DNA from: Arthrobacter beigongshangensis
Lineage (GTDB): Bacteria; Bacillota; Bacilli; Bacillales_A; Planococcaceae
DNA: 64,000 bases
Assembly: GCF_016820585.1 (NCBI RefSeq)
Contig: NZ_JADHDX010000009.1
Span: 1 to 64,000, forward strand
Reading direction: 5' to 3'
The notes beneath the pieces are model-generated. The model was not told the DNA's origin and ran no database searches. It worked only from the letters and a program-made list of their open reading frames with translations. How positions within the stretch are numbered: position 1 is the first letter of the stretch; the number at the start of each line of letters is the position of its first letter. Below, in pieces: positions 40,357 through 46,372 of the stretch. The position numbers and the translations under genes are program-made.

Positions 40357-40836
40357 GTGAATATTACAATTGTGACTGTAGGAAAACTAAAAGAAAAGTA
40401 TTTGAAAATGGGCATTGAGGAGTTTTCAAAACGACTCGGAGCCTATGCAAAAATTGATTTGGTCGAAGTAGCAGATGAAAAAGCACCGGAATCATTAAGC
40501 GATGCGGATATGGAAATCGTTAAGAAAAAGGAAGCCGAGCGCATTTTAGCGAAAGTTGGGGTGGATGCTTATGTCATAGCGCTAGCCATTGAAGGGAAAA
40601 TGAAAACATCAGAGGAGCTAGCAGCCGGCATAGAGTCGTTAATGACTTACGGGCGCAGTAAGGTAGTCTTTGTCATTGGCGGATCGCTTGGCCTGCACGA
40701 TAGTGTGCTGAAACGGGCAGATGAGTTATTGTCTTTTTCGAAAATGACATTCCCACATCAGATGATGAAATTGATTTTGCTGGAGCAGGTGTATCGGGCG
40801 TTTAGGATCATGAAGGGTGAACCTTATCATAAGTAA
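40357..40836 (+). CDS. rlmH: 23S rRNA (pseudouridine1915-N3)-methyltransferase RlmH
   Basis: A 159-residue SPOUT methyltransferase ([30 protein letters not shown]...[17 protein letters not shown]) acting on assembled 70S ribosomes. The GTG start has AAAGGTGG about 7 nt upstream. It marks the end of the conserved wal neighbourhood; beyond it the window is more variable. Confidence 0.97.
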
Positions 40837-40886
40837 TTAAAAAAGAAATAAAAAACGCTATATCTAAATACCAATTTAACCAAGCG

Positions 40887-40927
40887 AAAGCCATAACCCT
40901 ACTTGTCATAAGGGTTATGGCTTTTGT
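40887..40927 (+). terminator. rlmH terminator
   Basis: A perfect 14-bp stem, AAAGCCATAACCCT with its complement (40887-40900, 40911-40924), running into TTTTGTT. Confidence 0.9.
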
Positions 40928-40975
40928 TAGGCTGTCTGTGAAGTCTTGCGAGTGGGATTGCTTCCTTTTACCATC

Positions 40976-41023
40976 TTTCAAATAGATGAAAACTACTATA
41001 TAATAGGTATCATCTATTTGAAA
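40976..41023. repeat. 14-bp perfect inverted repeat around a TATAAT, upstream of mqo
   Basis: TTTCAAATAGATGA (40976-40989) and its exact complement (41010-41023) flank 20 nt that contain TATAAT (40999-41004). The right arm ends 1 nt before the -35 of the mqo promoter candidate. It could be an operator or a leftover of an insertion; the regulator is unknown. Confidence 0.6.
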
Positions 41024-41024
41024 A

Positions 41025-41052
41025 TTGTATTACGTTTTGTGATTGTTATAAT
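41025..41052 (+). promoter_or_regulatory. Candidate mqo promoter
   Basis: TTGTAT (41025-41030), a 16-nt spacer and a perfect TATAAT (41047-41052), about 78 nt before the mqo start. Confidence 0.5.
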
Positions 41053-41130
41053 TGAGACAGAAGGTTTGTGACGCCTAATCAGGAGCCCCTATATCCTTTC
41101 TGCAAATCTTAGAGTATAAGGATGATAAAA

Positions 41131-42675
41131 ATGAGTAACAGCAACAAGAAAACAGACGTTATCTTAATTGGTGCCGGAATCATGAGTGCGACTTTGGGGA
41201 CAATGCTGAAGGAATTAGTGCCAGAATGGGATATTAAAGTGTTTGAAAAACTCGCAAGTGCCGGAGAAGAAAGCTCTAACGAATGGAATAATGCGGGAAC
41301 AGGGCACGCTGCATTATGTGAGCTGAACTATACAAGTGAAAAACCGGACGGATCTGTAGATATAAGTAAAGCTATCAAAATTAATGAACAGTTTCAGGTT
41401 TCCATGCAGTTTTGGTCTTACCTTGTAAACCAAAAGCTAATTAGCAATCCTCAAGACTTTATTACGGCGCTGCCACATATGAGTATGGTGCAAGGAGAAC
41501 AAAATATAGCGTTTTTAAAGAAACGTTTTGAAGCGATGTCGAAAAATCCTCTGTTCGAAGGGATGGAGTTTTCCGATAACGAAGAAAAACTGAAGGAATG
41601 GATTCCACTTATTATGCAGGGACGTCCATCGAATGACGCTATTGCAGCAACCAAAATCGACGCTGGAACAGATGTTAATTTTGGTGCATTAACGCGTATG
41701 TTGTTTGATCACTTAAAAACTAAAGATGTTGGTATTCACTACAAACACAGCGTTGACGGTCTGAAACGCACGGATGATGGCTTATGGGAAGTAAAAGTGA
41801 AGAACATAGAGAGCGGTGCGTCTGAGCGTCATACGGCAAAATTTGTCTTTATTGGCGGAGGCGGTGGAAGCCTGCATCTATTGCAAAAATCCGGTATTCC
41901 TGAAGGGAAGCATATCGGTGGATTCCCGGTAAGTGGCATATTCATGGTGTGTAATAATCCTGAAGTTGTGGAACAGCACCATGCCAAAGTATACGGAAAA
42001 GCTGCAGTGGGTGCTCCACCTATGTCTGTTCCACATTTAGATACAAGATTTATCGACAATAAAAAATCATTGCTATTTGGACCATTTGCCGGTTTCTCAC
42101 CCAAGTTTTTAAAAACAGGCTCTATGCTTGATTTGGTCACTTCTGTCAAACCGAATAATGTGTTGACGATGTTGGCGGCTGGCGCAAAAGAAATGCCATT
42201 AACAAAGTATTTGATCCAGCAAGTATTGCTGTCGAAAGAGCAGCGTATGAAAGAGTTGCGAGATTTTATTCCGAATGCCAAAACAGATGAGTGGGATTTT
42301 GTAGTCGCAGGTCAACGTGTGCAAGTGATTAAGGACACAGAGGCTGGCGGTAAAGGTACGCTACAATTTGGTACAGAAGTAATTACTGCAGAAGACGGCT
42401 CGATTGCAGCGCTATTAGGTGCCTCTCCAGGTGCATCTACTGCCGTTCACGTGATGTTCGAAGTCATTAAAAAATGTTTCCCACAACATATGGCAGAATG
42501 GGAGCCTAAACTTAAGGAAATGGTTCCCTCTTATGGACTGTCGTTAGTGGACAACCGAGAGCTTCTGCATGAAGTTCATACTTCAACAGCGCAGGTGCTT
42601 GGGTTAAGCGACAGCTTACCGGAGCCTAGTAGTTCATTGGAGCTTGAAACAGAAGAGTTGAATGAGGAAGTTTAA
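41131..42675 (+). CDS. mqo: Malate:quinone oxidoreductase
   Basis: A 514-residue FAD-dependent membrane-associated enzyme oxidising malate to oxaloacetate with electrons to menaquinone. N-terminal FAD motif [14 protein letters not shown] and the Mqo signatures [20 protein letters not shown] and [13 protein letters not shown] are present. I chose ATG 41131 with AAGGAT 8 nt upstream; ATG 41122 adds MIK and sits on the Shine-Dalgarno. Length matches the family (about 500). Confidence 0.96.
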
Positions 42676-42687
42676 GTAAATAAAAGT

Positions 42688-42731
42688 AAGCATAGATAGC
42701 TGATACTCAGCTTTCCGTGCTTATTTTTTTA
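42688..42731 (+). terminator. mqo terminator
   Basis: A two-part hairpin, AAGCA/TGCTT and AGCTGA/TCAGCT, followed by ATTTTTTT. Confidence 0.75.
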
Positions 42732-42868
42732 TTGTGCTGATCAATCAATGGGGTGGGTACCTTAATGAGTTCAAGTCGCCGTCATTACGTATCTCAGGGT
42801 GATTTGTAGACACCAAAAAAGGAGTATCTCTTCGAATGTCGAAGTAGGTAAGTGATAAAAAAATCTAC

Positions 42869-42897
42869 TTGACAATGAAAGGCACGCTTTATATCTA
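42869..42897 (+). promoter_or_regulatory. Candidate promoter of the HipA-like/HIRAN pair
   Basis: A perfect TTGACA (42869-42874), 17 nt, then TATCTA (42892-42897); TATTAT lies 3 nt further. It is 48 nt before the TTG start. A short dyad CTTCGAATGTCGAAG lies about 30 nt upstream. Confidence 0.5.
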
Positions 42898-42944
42898 TTA
42901 TACAATAACAAGAATTATTGAATACTTAATGGAGGTATAACAAT

Positions 42945-43808
42945 TTGCGGGACATTAGTCATTGGGAAAGAATAGGGTTTGGTGGGAAGAGTACTCTGGA
43001 TAAGGAAGAACTCATAGACTCTGAAACAAGACAAAGGTACCTTATTAAGTATCCAAGACAATTTGCCGTAGGTACATCTTGGGAAGATATAACAGAGTTA
43101 ATAGCGGCCGATATTGGTAGATTGTTAGGACTTCAGATGATGGATGTAGAGATTGTCGTTCGAAATGGGCGTAGAGGCAGTTTACTAAGGAATATCATTC
43201 CGCTTGGTGTTGCGAATGAGGAAGGTGGAGTGCTTCTTAGTGGTGTAGTCAACTATGAAGAGTTCCTAGAAACGCGCTTAAAAGGTTTGGAATTGATTAG
43301 AGCAGGTATAGCATTGATGAAGCAATTAGATTTTTGGGAAGCTACTAAGTTAGACTTTATTGAAATGAATTACTTTGATATTCTAATTGGTAATCAAGAT
43401 AGACATCCCTACAATTGGATGATTTTATTCAAGTCACAAAATCAAAAGGAATTCTCTAAAATCTATGATAACGGTGCATCCTTAGGGTTTCGGTTTGATG
43501 ATAAGCAGTTAGCAGAGTACTTATCAAATGATATTAAATTAGCAAAATATATGCGTAATGCATCTGTAAAAGCAGGGTTATTTGAACACAAAAAGGTCAA
43601 AGCGAAAGATATGTTAACTTATTTGAAACAGAGTTACTTTGGGGAATCGCTGTCGATTATTAATAGAATTGAACGTTTTGATTTCAAGCGTTATTATGAA
43701 ATTATTGATGGATATGCGATTTTAAGTGATATTCAAAAAGAATGGCTAAAAGTAATTATTTCCTTTCGTCAGCAATCTATTCTACAATGGTTTAGAGAGG
43801 AGGAGTAA
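42945..43808 (+). CDS. HipA-like kinase-domain protein
   Basis: A 287-residue protein with only the kinase half of a HipA-like protein. A glycine-rich GFGGKS (11-16) and a likely ATP lysine in LIKYP (35) are followed by a catalytic loop IGNQDRHPYNW (148-158, Asp152 and Asn157) and a metal-binding DNG (175-177). The fold is PI3/4K-like, with the DRHxxN catalytic pattern. The usual HipA N-terminal subdomain is missing and appears in the next gene. The TTG start has GGAGG 9 nt upstream. Three nt separate it from the HIRAN gene. No HipB-like antitoxin is adjacent. Target unknown; a Ser/Thr kinase of a translation factor or defence signalling are both possible. Confidence 0.75.
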   Translation: MRDISHWERIGFGGKSTLDKEELIDSETRQRYLIKYPRQFAVGTSWEDITELIAADIGRLLGLQMMDVEIVVRNGRRGSLLRNIIPLGVANEEGGVLLSGVVNYEEFLETRLKGLELIRAGIALMKQLDFWEATKLDFIEMNYFDILIGNQDRHPYNWMILFKSQNQKEFSKIYDNGASLGFRFDDKQLAEYLSNDIKLAKYMRNASVKAGLFEHKKVKAKDMLTYLKQSYFGESLSIINRIERFDFKRYYEIIDGYAILSDIQKEWLKVIISFRQQSILQWFREEE

Positions 43809-43811
43809 TAT

Positions 43812-44567
43812 ATGGAAGAACATAAATCGCTTTGGGTTGTCTGGCAAAATTCAGAGTCGCGATTACATTACCATGTTGGTACATTATCCCACTATAATGG
43901 GCAATATGAATTCACGTATACATGGCAAAGTGAAGGTAATCAAAAGGTAAGGGATGCCCTGCAGAATGGTTATATGTTACACCCCTCATTTTCTCATTTA
44001 GAAAAAACATATACAGCTACTAAATTATTTCCTGCCTTCGATCGTCGGTTACCTTCGGACATTCGAGCAGACTTTAATCATATACTTGATGAATTCCATT
44101 TAGATAAAACTGCTTCAAAAATGGAGTTGTTAGAACAAACACGTGGGAAATCGGCTAATGATACCTATTCATTTGAAAAATCACTTAAAGTTGAGAGTGG
44201 AAAGTTGATTACCACTTTCTTTATCAATGGAATGCGTCATCAAAAAGATTTGCCTAACAATTGGCCAAGTATTTTACGTACTACAAATAAAATTGAGTTA
44301 AAATTAGAACCCGAAAATTTAATTGATGTAAATGCAGTTGCAGTTTATGGGGGATTAGGAACTAAATTAGGCTACGTTCCACGTTTTTATGCAGCTGGAA
44401 TTGGAGCATTGTTAGAACGAGGAATTAAACATAAAGTAATGATTAACTATATTAATGAAACGGCTACACCGGATTGGTGGGTTAAAATGGACTTCGAGTG
44501 CAACATGAGCGAGATTTCACCAGAAGAACTAAAAAGTTTGGATCCACTTTTTGAATATGCAATTTAA
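43812..44567 (+). CDS. HipA-N-like domain fused to HIRAN domain
   Basis: A 251-residue protein. The N-terminal ~100 residues (LHYHVGTLSHYNGQYEF..., GYMLHPSFSHLEKTY, LFPAFDRRLPSDIR) resemble the HipA N-terminal subdomain. The C-terminal half (about 134-225) is a HIRAN domain: KLEPENLIDVNAVAVYG, LGYVPRFYAAGIGALLERG. HIRAN domains bind DNA 3' ends or damaged DNA in HLTF-type proteins. GAGGAGG lies within the end of the preceding gene, so the pair is co-translated. The split recalls HipS/HipT, but with a DNA-binding domain added. Function not established. Confidence 0.75.
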   Translation: MEEHKSLWVVWQNSESRLHYHVGTLSHYNGQYEFTYTWQSEGNQKVRDALQNGYMLHPSFSHLEKTYTATKLFPAFDRRLPSDIRADFNHILDEFHLDKTASKMELLEQTRGKSANDTYSFEKSLKVESGKLITTFFINGMRHQKDLPNNWPSILRTTNKIELKLEPENLIDVNAVAVYGGLGTKLGYVPRFYAAGIGALLERGIKHKVMINYINETATPDWWVKMDFECNMSEISPEELKSLDPLFEYAI

Positions 44568-44578
44568 TGAAGATAAAA

Positions 44579-44620
44579 GAAGGGAAATGCTTGATACCCA
44601 AAGTATTCCCCTTCTTTTTT
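44579..44620 (+). terminator. Terminator after the HipA-like/HIRAN pair
   Basis: GAAGGGAAATGCTT pairs with AAGTATTCCCCTTC with one mismatch and one wobble, followed by six U residues. It separates the pair from the GIY-YIG gene. Confidence 0.75.
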
Positions 44621-44786
44621 ATAATTGTACACTTATTTGAAAAACGAAATCTTTTTCAGTACGAGACAAGCAGAAGTGGCTACGCAGATCCTGACAGTGC
44701 CAGCGATGACCCCTTTTTTAGGACTGGAAAAAATGGAGAAGGATAAATGATAAACGCTATAATTCGAGGGAAAGCTGTTAAAATAG

Positions 44787-45002
44787 AATAGACGTTTAAG
44801 CAAAAGTGGAATTTATTCCTTTAATTTGACGGCTACCGACAATAGCATATCGACAAGTACCGTTCGAAAGTTGTTTTACAGACGGCAAGCCTATAATCAG
44901 CTTGAAGCAATTGCGAAAGAGCAAGAGGAGATATCACTTAACGCTGCATTTGAATCCTTGGAATTGACCTTGTTCAACAATATGGTCATCGTGTTGGACT
45001 AG
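44787..45002 (+). pseudogene. Possible 3' remnant of an unidentified gene
   Basis: A 71-codon open stretch with no start codon near its left end and no ribosome binding site. It encodes RLSKSGIYSFNLTATDNSIS and ends NNMVIVLD before TAG. Composition and charge look protein-like, but I do not recognise a family. It ends 26 nt before the GIY-YIG start. The rest of the 44568-45028 gap shows only a terminator. Confidence 0.3.
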
Positions 45003-45028
45003 TTATAACGGGATTGGGGGGAGTGGTA

Positions 45029-45946
45029 ATGAATGTTTTAACGTTAAAGTTAAACAGTAAGGAAATGCCTTTCCAAAATGTTTATTTGGATTTTAAAGGT
45101 ATAATCGAATCAAATGTTTTTGCACAAAAAAATAATAAAACCTTGCGTGAGACACTGTTGCATCCTAAGTATAAATTTTTAGAGAATAGATGCGAACACG
45201 ACTTACGTGGTTTCTTAGATACTCCGTTAGGTGAAGCGCTATTAGTAAATAAGCAAAATAAAAAAGAAACGTATAAGCGTTTTTTAAATCCCTACGGAGA
45301 TCTATCGTATAGTCAATTTTCTATTCAAGATTCAAACGTTTTGAATCTAAAGGGTTTATATGCTTATGTTGTGAATCAAGAGCTTGTCTATATAGGACGG
45401 TGCCTGGATACTTTTAAGAAACGAATTAATTATGGGTATGGAAAAATCGCTCCGAAAAACTGTTACAGGGATGGTCAATCGACGAATTGTCACCTAAATG
45501 CCCTAATAACAGAAGAAAGAAAGACAAAAGATATTCGTTTCTATGTAATGCCATTAAATAATTTGGATGTCATTAAACATCTTGAGGTAAGCTTGATCCA
45601 AAAATATAATCCCCTTTGGAATAAACAATTGAAAACAAAAAACGAATTACCGTCTGCTTTCATTGTTACAAAAGAGTACCGGCCAACCCCGAAAAGAATA
45701 GACAGTAGCAAGGCTACTAAAACTAAAAGTGCGACATTTCAAAAGTATGTGATTAGCCAACTTGAAAGCGGTGCTATAGAGATTCGGGAAGAAGAGCAAA
45801 AATTATCGAAGGTATTGCCGACTCTTAGGGAAATAGCAGGGGAACTTACGATATCAATTAATAATTCGAATGGCAATCCTTATAACACAAGGCAGCTGGG
45901 GGCTATATTGATAGAGAAGTTAAGCACAACGGCAAACGGCTACTAA
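45029..45946 (+). CDS. GIY-YIG nuclease-domain protein
   Basis: A 305-residue protein. The N-terminal ~100 residues are unassigned. The central GIY-YIG domain has GLYAYVV, LVYIGR, the catalytic arginine in KRINYGYG, a glutamate in HLEVSLIQKY and NPLWN. All key positions of the nuclease core are present. The basic C-terminal third (TPKRIDSSKATKTKSATFQK, then TLREIAGELTI) could bind DNA. I chose ATG 45029 with GGGGGGAG upstream. Standalone GIY-YIG proteins of this size include restriction-like and homing-like enzymes; which applies here is unclear. Confidence 0.75.
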   Translation: MNVLTLKLNSKEMPFQNVYLDFKGIIESNVFAQKNNKTLRETLLHPKYKFLENRCEHDLRGFLDTPLGEALLVNKQNKKETYKRFLNPYGDLSYSQFSIQDSNVLNLKGLYAYVVNQELVYIGRCLDTFKKRINYGYGKIAPKNCYRDGQSTNCHLNALITEERKTKDIRFYVMPLNNLDVIKHLEVSLIQKYNPLWNKQLKTKNELPSAFIVTKEYRPTPKRIDSSKATKTKSATFQKYVISQLESGAIEIREEEQKLSKVLPTLREIAGELTISINNSNGNPYNTRQLGAILIEKLSTTANGY

Positions 45947-45988
45947 AATTGAAGATATGTTCAAAAAAATAACGGATAGGGAGAGAAT

Positions 45989-46372
45989 ATGATGATTTCA
46001 AAAATCGGTCAAATTATGCTATATGTCAATAACCAGGACGAGAATGTGAAATTTTGGACAGAAAAAGTAGGATTTAGCGTCATTTCAGAAGAGGATAATG
46101 GCCAAGGTATGAAATGGATTGAAATCGCGCCAACGAAGGACGCGGAAACGTCGATTGTTCTACACAATAAGGAGCTCATTGCTAAAATGCAGCCCGAGTT
46201 AAACCTTCAAGCACCTTCCTTACTACTGTTCTCGGATAATTTGGATGCATTGTACAAAGATCTATCGGACAAGCAAGTTACGGTCGGAGAGCTGGTCACA
46301 ATGCCTTCTGGTCGGGTATTTAACTTTGCTGATAATGAAGGAAATTATTTTGCGGTTTTGGAAAGAAAATAA
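45989..46372 (+). CDS. VOC (glyoxalase/bleomycin resistance) family protein
   Basis: A 127-residue VOC-fold protein with two beta-alpha-beta-beta-beta modules (IGQIMLYVNNQDENVKFWTEKVGF ... VFNFADNEGNYFAVLE). The family includes glyoxalases, dioxygenases and drug-binding proteins, and the sequence alone does not fix the substrate. The C-terminal glutamate ligand position is present (VLE). GGGAGAG ribosome binding site; own terminator downstream. Confidence 0.85.
   Translation: MMISKIGQIMLYVNNQDENVKFWTEKVGFSVISEEDNGQGMKWIEIAPTKDAETSIVLHNKELIAKMQPELNLQAPSLLLFSDNLDALYKDLSDKQVTVGELVTMPSGRVFNFADNEGNYFAVLERK

Follow-up and report, generated by a model that had tools for sequence, protein, structure and literature searches.

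A pair of adjacent genes in the 64,000-nucleotide stretch of DNA analysed here (the window) raised the question of whether a HipA-type kinase divided over two genes, with a HIRAN domain in the second, is a system of its own or a known one, and what such a pair might do.

Architecture of the gene pair and its relation to known systems

The first gene (hipI-like; 42945..43808, + strand) encoded a kinase of 287 amino acids and had a TTG start downstream of GGAGGT (42931–42936). Its TAA stop codon (43806–43808) was followed after three nucleotides (43809–43811) by the second gene (hipN-like; 43812..44567, + strand), encoding 251 amino acids and predicted to be a probable antitoxin and regulator. 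Both open reading frames were found where the first-pass annotation had placed them, with the kinase core and the HipA-N-like partner in separate, adjacent genes. By eye, the ribosome-binding-site-like sequences were strong for both genes: GGAGGT for hipI and GAGGAGG, at the 3′ end of hipI, for hipN. No open reading frame of at least 60 amino acids was present on either strand of the 269-nt gap upstream of hipI (42676–42944), and hence no HipB regulator there, in agreement with the earlier description. The pair had also been credited with its own promoter and terminator. The intrinsic terminator downstream of hipN (44575..44620, + strand) was strong, a hairpin of −20.1 kcal/mol (z = −5.6) followed by a U-run. 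The putative promoter (42869..42897, + strand) was weak: a perfect TTGACA at 42869, a spacing of 17 nt and a weak TATCTA were noticed by eye, and a consensus promoter scan made no call at the TTGACA upstream of hipI.

The window kinase scored 27.4 bits against Pfam HipA_C, slightly below the cut-off of 30.5, and matched CtkA in the PDB with E = 8.4e-10. Since hipI and hipN share one frame, both were folded as a single chain with the intervening stop read as a residue (pLDDT 91.8, pTM 0.67), a folding device that has no interface score and makes no claim about the cell. Residues 1–293 of this model resembled CtkA most closely among solved kinases (Z 28.1), followed by Legionella HipT (Z 17.8) and HipA (Z about 15–17). 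The alignment with HipA started only at about HipA residue 120–150, and the 287-residue kinase had no N-subdomain-1. DRHPYN (D152–N157; 43398..43415, + strand) is taken by us to be the catalytic motif, and DNG (D175; 43467..43475, + strand) is presumably the Mg-binding motif. D152, R153, H154, N157 and D175 were invariant in 23/23 aligned kinases, and K35 was nearly invariant. The Gly-rich-loop region with its adjacent Ser/Thr (GFGGKSTLD; 42975..43001, + strand) was assigned by alignment position only, with its label following PMC8262856. In a kinase tree constructed without sequences from PMC8262856, the window kinase was placed inside a clade (100/100) of 12 HipN-paired kinases.

The first 125 residues of HipN (43812..44186, + strand), folded alone (pLDDT 89.4, pTM 0.81), matched three HipS entries with Z-scores of 12.6, 12.4 and 12.3 (99–101 residues, rmsd 1.9–2.2) and HipA N-domains with Z 8.0–10.1, while the first unrelated entry followed at Z 4.7. 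Likeness to the HipA N-domain is thus firm by fold; the sequence match to Pfam Couple_hipA had an E-value of only 0.12. The HIRAN domain, at about residues 128–249 (44193..44558, + strand), was identified by both fold and sequence. The corresponding residues 417–538 of the single-chain model matched the HIRAN structures of lp_0118 (3k2y, Z 12.6) and of HLTF bound to DNA (4s0n, Z 11.7), with sequence matches of E = 3.2e-11 and E = 1.3e-5, respectively. The Pfam HIRAN match (E = 1.3e-7; 31.8 bits, cut-off 24.7) bore out the presence of this domain as first annotated. Among Pfam matches up to E = 1, only HIRAN, a weak Couple_hipA and a weak PSD4 were found, and neither DUF3037 nor DUF1829 was among them. 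HIRAN was present in 24/24 aligned HipN sequences.

The HIRAN domain of HLTF binds 3′ DNA ends, which an R71E substitution prevents (PMC11366124), and its Y72 and Y93 stack on the bound dinucleotide (PMC4666394). By alignment, the equivalent of R71 in the window HipN was R142; arginine occupied this site in 20 of the 24 aligned HipN sequences and was missing in four, and N169 was invariant among all 24. The equivalents of Y72 and Y93 were H143 and I171, so the DNA-stacking tyrosine pair was not kept. DNA binding by HipN seems plausible but not secured, because R142 is retained but both HLTF tyrosines are replaced.

These features coincide with those of hipIN, described in 2021 (Gerdes, Baerentsen and Brodersen; PMC8262856) as a short, lid-less HipA-family kinase followed by HipN, a partner with a HipS-like and a HIRAN part. 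That paper distinguishes four short kinase families of 279–321 amino acids without N-subdomain-1, predicts that HipN neutralises HipI, and proposes that HipN is a HipS-like antitoxin whose HIRAN domain senses phage DNA ends and frees the kinase, leading to abortive infection. The window pair had the short lid-less kinase, the core kinase motifs, the downstream HipS-like partner and the C-terminal HIRAN, in the same gene order and with the same proposed model, and no separating feature was found. The window pair is a further hipIN module, real and well formed. The implication of the first-pass annotation that it is unlike known systems did not hold: the same gene arrangement, HipN as antitoxin and a trigger by DNA ends or phage had all been published in 2021 (PMC8262856). 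The two adjacent genes also matched PDC-M03A (E = 1.3e-49) and PDC-M03B (E = 1.3e-62), the components of the candidate defence system PDC-M03 in PADLOC-DB 2.0.0, as judged by E-value. No experiment on a hipIN or PDC-M03 pair was found in the literature searched, which included few subscription papers. What the present analysis adds to this class, predicted since 2021, is the HipS fold match of the HipN N-terminus, the placement in phages and the one-sided kinase loss.

Among related systems, HipBST likewise encodes the lid apart from the kinase, with the same folds as the window pair, and uses it as the antitoxin. It differs in that the window pair has no HipB, carries the partner downstream (HipS is upstream in HipBST) and has the added HIRAN domain. 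HipS neutralises HipT in both E. coli and Legionella (PMC10627512, PMC10653801); in E. coli HipS, a bulky Trp65 is wedged at the Gly-rich loop, and Legionella HipS is also without Trp there (PMC10653801). HipBA has a HipB gene and a lid fused to the kinase, whereas the window pair has neither. HipL joins these three domains, in matching order, in one polypeptide (PMC8262856) instead of two genes. DS-6/HipAD (PDC-M66) also combines a HipA-family kinase with a non-HipB partner, and there acts in phage defence (PMC13092281, PMC12548924), but its partner is DUF3037/DUF1829 rather than HipS–HIRAN. A catalytic kinase mutation abolishes defence by DS-6/HipAD (PMC13092281), and a similar HipA/DUF3037 pair stops protecting when its kinase is lost and becomes toxic when its partner is lost (PMC12548924). 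A 2025 paper reports HipA-domain and HIRAN-domain genes beside diDNase genes and leaves their function open (PMC11706625).

Linkage of HipI and HipN and loss of the kinase

Each family was searched separately in the same 261 genomes from the order and 398 from the class, and the kinase alone in 398 genomes from the phylum; these sets overlapped, and repeats were removed. Kinases were counted as HipI at ≥130 bits against PDC-M03A, a threshold set after the scores had been seen, and lower kinase matches were dropped. HIRAN-only matches were dropped before the counts (9/24 rows in one HipN survey and 14/28 in the other). At this threshold 23 distinct kinases were obtained, 21 of them intact (nine from the order, seven further ones from the class and five from the phylum), with G215 counted as intact although it was without about the last 12 kinase residues. 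An intact HipN was immediately downstream of, or fused to, each of the 21 intact HipI kinases. The profile search for the pair in other genomes, proposed earlier as a check, thus found the two genes conserved together. The remaining two kinases were broken, one by a one-base frameshift with an intact HipN (G220), the other with no HipN (G485). Just below the threshold were two more broken kinases, G293 (124 bits), which had an intact HipN and is counted below as locus L010, and G805 (103 bits), which like G485 was without a full-length HipN. A natural fusion of a HipI-like kinase and HipN, 515 amino acids long and HipL-like, was present in G989 (L125/L154) of the same class.

Three CtkA-like kinases with 95–106 bits (L034–L036) looked intact and had no adjacent HipN. 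They formed a clade of their own, whose place among the HipN-paired kinases the tree does not settle; counting them as HipI would raise the lone kinases from 0/21 to 3/24. Upstream of each, on the same strand and overlapping or adjacent, was an open reading frame of 157–175 amino acids that appeared HTH-like by eye, perhaps of the hipRG kind.

A different arrangement was seen at nine of 21 loci of related kinases that were checked (L073, L075–L079, L083, L084 and L162). Here a kinase of 268–292 amino acids (218 in L084, 265 in L162) was overlapped downstream by an open reading frame of 90–144 amino acids that resembled the HipS-like half without HIRAN. This arrangement looks like hipJS, and only the L075 frame matched the HipN profile.

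The order and class surveys contained 22 full-length HipN loci, at 16 of which the kinase was intact or nearly so and at six of which it was broken or absent (L007, L010, L011, L014, L015 and L023). An exact sign test (6 v 0) gave p = 0.031 with the loci treated as independent; their independence is incomplete, as two lie in one genome (G104) and L014 and L015 share a genus. The loss in L011 was a single-base frameshift caused by one missing base, possibly a sequencing error, and without this locus (5 v 0) the two-sided p was 0.06. L011 alone among the frameshift and stop cases was checked base by base, and some of these may be sequencing errors.

A scan of genome contigs anchored on HipN returned 26 loci, five of which were already counted; a first scan anchored on the kinase had returned no match. 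HipN was intact at 18 of the other 21 loci and broken at three. The 18 were divided equally between loci with an intact kinase and loci without one (L098, L099, L103, L105, L106, L107, L111, L113 and L116). A HipN-anchored scan cannot find lone kinases, and its nine kinase-less loci therefore stay outside the sign test. Altogether, 15 loci on chromosomes and one on a plasmid had an intact HipN without an intact kinase. The last of these, on an Oscillatoria plasmid, retained only the 3′ tail of a kinase upstream of HipN, preceded by a gene that we take to encode a transposase.

At four of the 15 chromosomal loci the kinase was untraceable (L007, L014, L023 and L111), and at another four only its last 28–66 codons were kept (L098, L099, L103 and L106). 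The L107 kinase was without its first ~70 residues, the L015 kinase consisted of three fragments, and the other five loci had frameshifts or stops in the kinase (L010, also without its start, L011, L105, L113 and L116). Compared with L102, about 1.1 kb was missing from L106, including all of the kinase except the last 28 codons, while the adjoining HipN stretch was intact with 93.6% DNA identity. Elsewhere, a damaged HipN accompanied a kinase that was itself damaged or missing (L114, L117, L118, L126, L127, L131 and L093), and L155 had a broken kinase with a short, weak HipN-like frame.

In pairs with a kinase-less member, the dN/dS of HipN was 0.07 (L011/L012), 0.18 (L099 with L100 or L101) and 0.24 (L102/L106), and it was 0.11 for L014/L015, both kinase-less. 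Where both members had a kinase it was 0.08–0.13, apart from one uninformative pair with few changes (0.94 at dS 0.03); these ranges are for the pairs that gave a value, several others being saturated. Lone HipN therefore looks conserved (dN/dS 0.07–0.24), with no clear difference from kinase-paired HipN, and pairwise values over such short times are not in themselves proof that selection continued once the kinase was lost. The sequences upstream of HipN in L014 and L015 did not align, and their kinase losses may have come before or after their split.

A toxin–antitoxin pair predicts the loss of the kinase only, and the one-sided loss fits a dangerous kinase. We consider it an indirect sign that HipI may be the harmful partner and HipN the antidote. 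A positional effect may also account for this pattern: the kinase is the first gene, and deletions from upstream would reach it first, with no toxicity needed. The persistence of intact HipN without a kinase suggests that HipN may serve a separate function. No earlier report of one-sided kinase loss in hipIN was found in the literature searched (few subscription papers included). The kinase-less loci provide ready-made natural variants and lead to the prediction that lone HipN neutralises HipI.

As a separate observation, L011 had a run of 13 G (~597–609) shortly before the kinase start, where its sister L012 had a short mixed G tract. Slippage at this run might set the level of kinase expression, or the run might be an artefact of assembly.

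Genomic context and carriage by phages and plasmids

The window pair was located between genes that we take, from their translations, to be mqo (upstream) and VOC, with presumed Ada/AlkA/Ogt-like genes also nearby. In the congeners G009 and G002 (L181 and L182), the VOC gene directly followed mqo; the window VOC gene, at 45989, had 85.7% identity. The 3.3-kb segment from mqo to VOC (42676..45988; ends approximate), which holds hipI, hipN and a 310-amino-acid open reading frame, was therefore either inserted here or lost there. These two were the only ones among 29 other mqo loci with VOC directly after mqo; at the other 27 no copy of this VOC gene lay within 1.5 kb of mqo, and hipI–hipN was absent from that range at all 29. 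The region is thus variable, as the first-pass annotation had suggested. A search for the window kinase in 100 other relatives returned a single match, with 31% identity and in a different clade of the tree.

The 310-amino-acid frame (45014..45946, + strand) had been described as a nuclease gene beside the pair. It lay in the same segment as the pair, and its identity stayed weak, with best matches to UvrC (E = 0.006) and RE_Eco29kI (E = 0.018); we presume that it may be a GIY-YIG nuclease. It was rejected as a third component of the system, as it had no match at the other pair loci compared and partial matches in 5/100 relatives.

The pair was also carried by phages. An integrase gene adjoined it in the Clostridioides phage L057, in the two examined of four listed Vibrio records (Vinavirales; L058 and L094) and in the IMG/VR contigs L121, L173 and L174. 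In L175 the integrase was further from the pair, and in L176 the pair was located between terminase and portal genes. The integrase was thus the next gene in six of eight phage loci, and these eight represent about three lineages, as L121 was nearly identical to L057, and L058, L094 and L173–L175 were related. When viral contigs were scanned with the window HipN, the window kinase, the Bacillota HipN alignment or the L028 HipN, no relative was found; other HipN queries did find relatives there. L177 and L178 were excluded as phage loci of the pair, having a HIRAN-like stretch only. On a Rhodococcus plasmid (L059, 1–7272), hipI–hipN was located between specificity and methyltransferase genes in a cluster with annotated helicase, specificity-subunit and DNA methyltransferase genes, which looks like type I restriction-modification. 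The pair was also found on plasmids of Nocardiopsis, Mycolicibacterium and Nostoc.

Proposed function and alternatives

We propose that the pair is a two-gene hipIN toxin–antitoxin module, serving most likely as a switch in phage defence or stress, and assign this reading a rough probability of 0.6. In the proposed mechanism, HipI would be a Ser/Thr kinase with the HipA/CtkA fold that lacks the usual N-terminal lid. The first half of HipN would supply this lid and, with its HipS fold, may bind the kinase near the Gly-rich loop and hold HipI inactive. The HIRAN half would bind DNA ends or single-stranded DNA arising from phage replication or damage, and this binding would loosen the hold, so that HipI phosphorylates a host target, with something in translation as the likeliest guess, and growth stops. 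That HipI is a kinase toxin neutralised by HipN is the part we regard as probable. The folds, the linkage and the one-sided loss likewise supported the earlier interpretation of a split toxin of the HipA type whose partner has HipS-like and HIRAN parts; its separation from known systems fell away. A role in defence is favoured with some reserve. As HipA-family kinases with another partner act in defence (PMC13092281, PMC12548924), the toxin–antitoxin defence reading appears the likeliest for hipIN. A trigger by DNA ends is a tentative proposal, to which we give slightly less than even odds. If the whole model is true, hipIN would be a toxin whose antidote has its own DNA sensor, and a growth-stopping kinase would be tied directly to phage or broken DNA.

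The same domains could serve the host itself, with HIRAN sensing broken ends or stalled forks, and with growth slowed by the kinase during repair. The binding of 3′ DNA ends by HLTF, sensitive to R71E, would suit such a damage or replication-stress switch (PMC11366124). So would the closeness of the window locus to presumed repair genes (Ada-, AlkA- and Ogt-like), except that these lie outside the segment missing from two relatives. The patchy distribution (one match in 100 relatives, and that missing segment) and the carriage by phages and plasmids are more in keeping with defence or addiction, and we consider a host stress switch of this kind unlikely. Carriage by mobile DNA could equally mark a selfish addiction module of little benefit to the host, with lone HipN genes as antidotes retained by chromosomes. 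Kinase-less HipN genes that are intact and apparently under constraint would be expected of such antidotes, and the literature includes discussions of orphan antitoxins and of anti-addiction. Addiction would leave the HIRAN half, present in all aligned HipN, unexplained, and appears improbable as the main role.

The loci at which HipN is intact but the kinase broken or missing could also mean that HipN plays the leading part, as a regulator or repair factor that binds DNA ends, and that HipI is a dispensable modifier of it, the kinase losses being neutral drift of an upstream gene. Against this stand the catalytic residues kept in the 23 aligned kinases, the occurrence of the kinase fused to HipN and the lack of orphan HipI at ≥130 bits in the surveys; this reading is very unlikely in our estimation. 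More speculatively, hipIN might be a DNA-end-gated kinase weapon of temperate phages and plasmids against rivals, with lone HipN genes as chromosomal immunity genes, left after deletion of the kinase, that protect against incoming or activated HipI. We hold this to be rather doubtful. If it were true, HipN would have been selected alone, for its effect as an antidote and perhaps also for sensing DNA ends independently.

The neighbours of the window pair (mqo, VOC and the presumed Ada/AlkA/Ogt-like genes) are non-defence genes, which counts against the toxin–antitoxin defence reading. In the flanks of 16 pair loci, some of 123 open reading frames matched GmrSD, AbiD, DndB and other families; this survey, which left out 41 of 164 listed frames and had no control set, gave no more than two members for any PADLOC family shown, and no enrichment is claimed. 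In L113 (4533–6762), the pair, with its broken kinase, directly followed an rlmH homologue. The window pair was also downstream of rlmH, with mqo alone between them (40357–44567). In staphylococci, rlmH is the insertion site of SCC.
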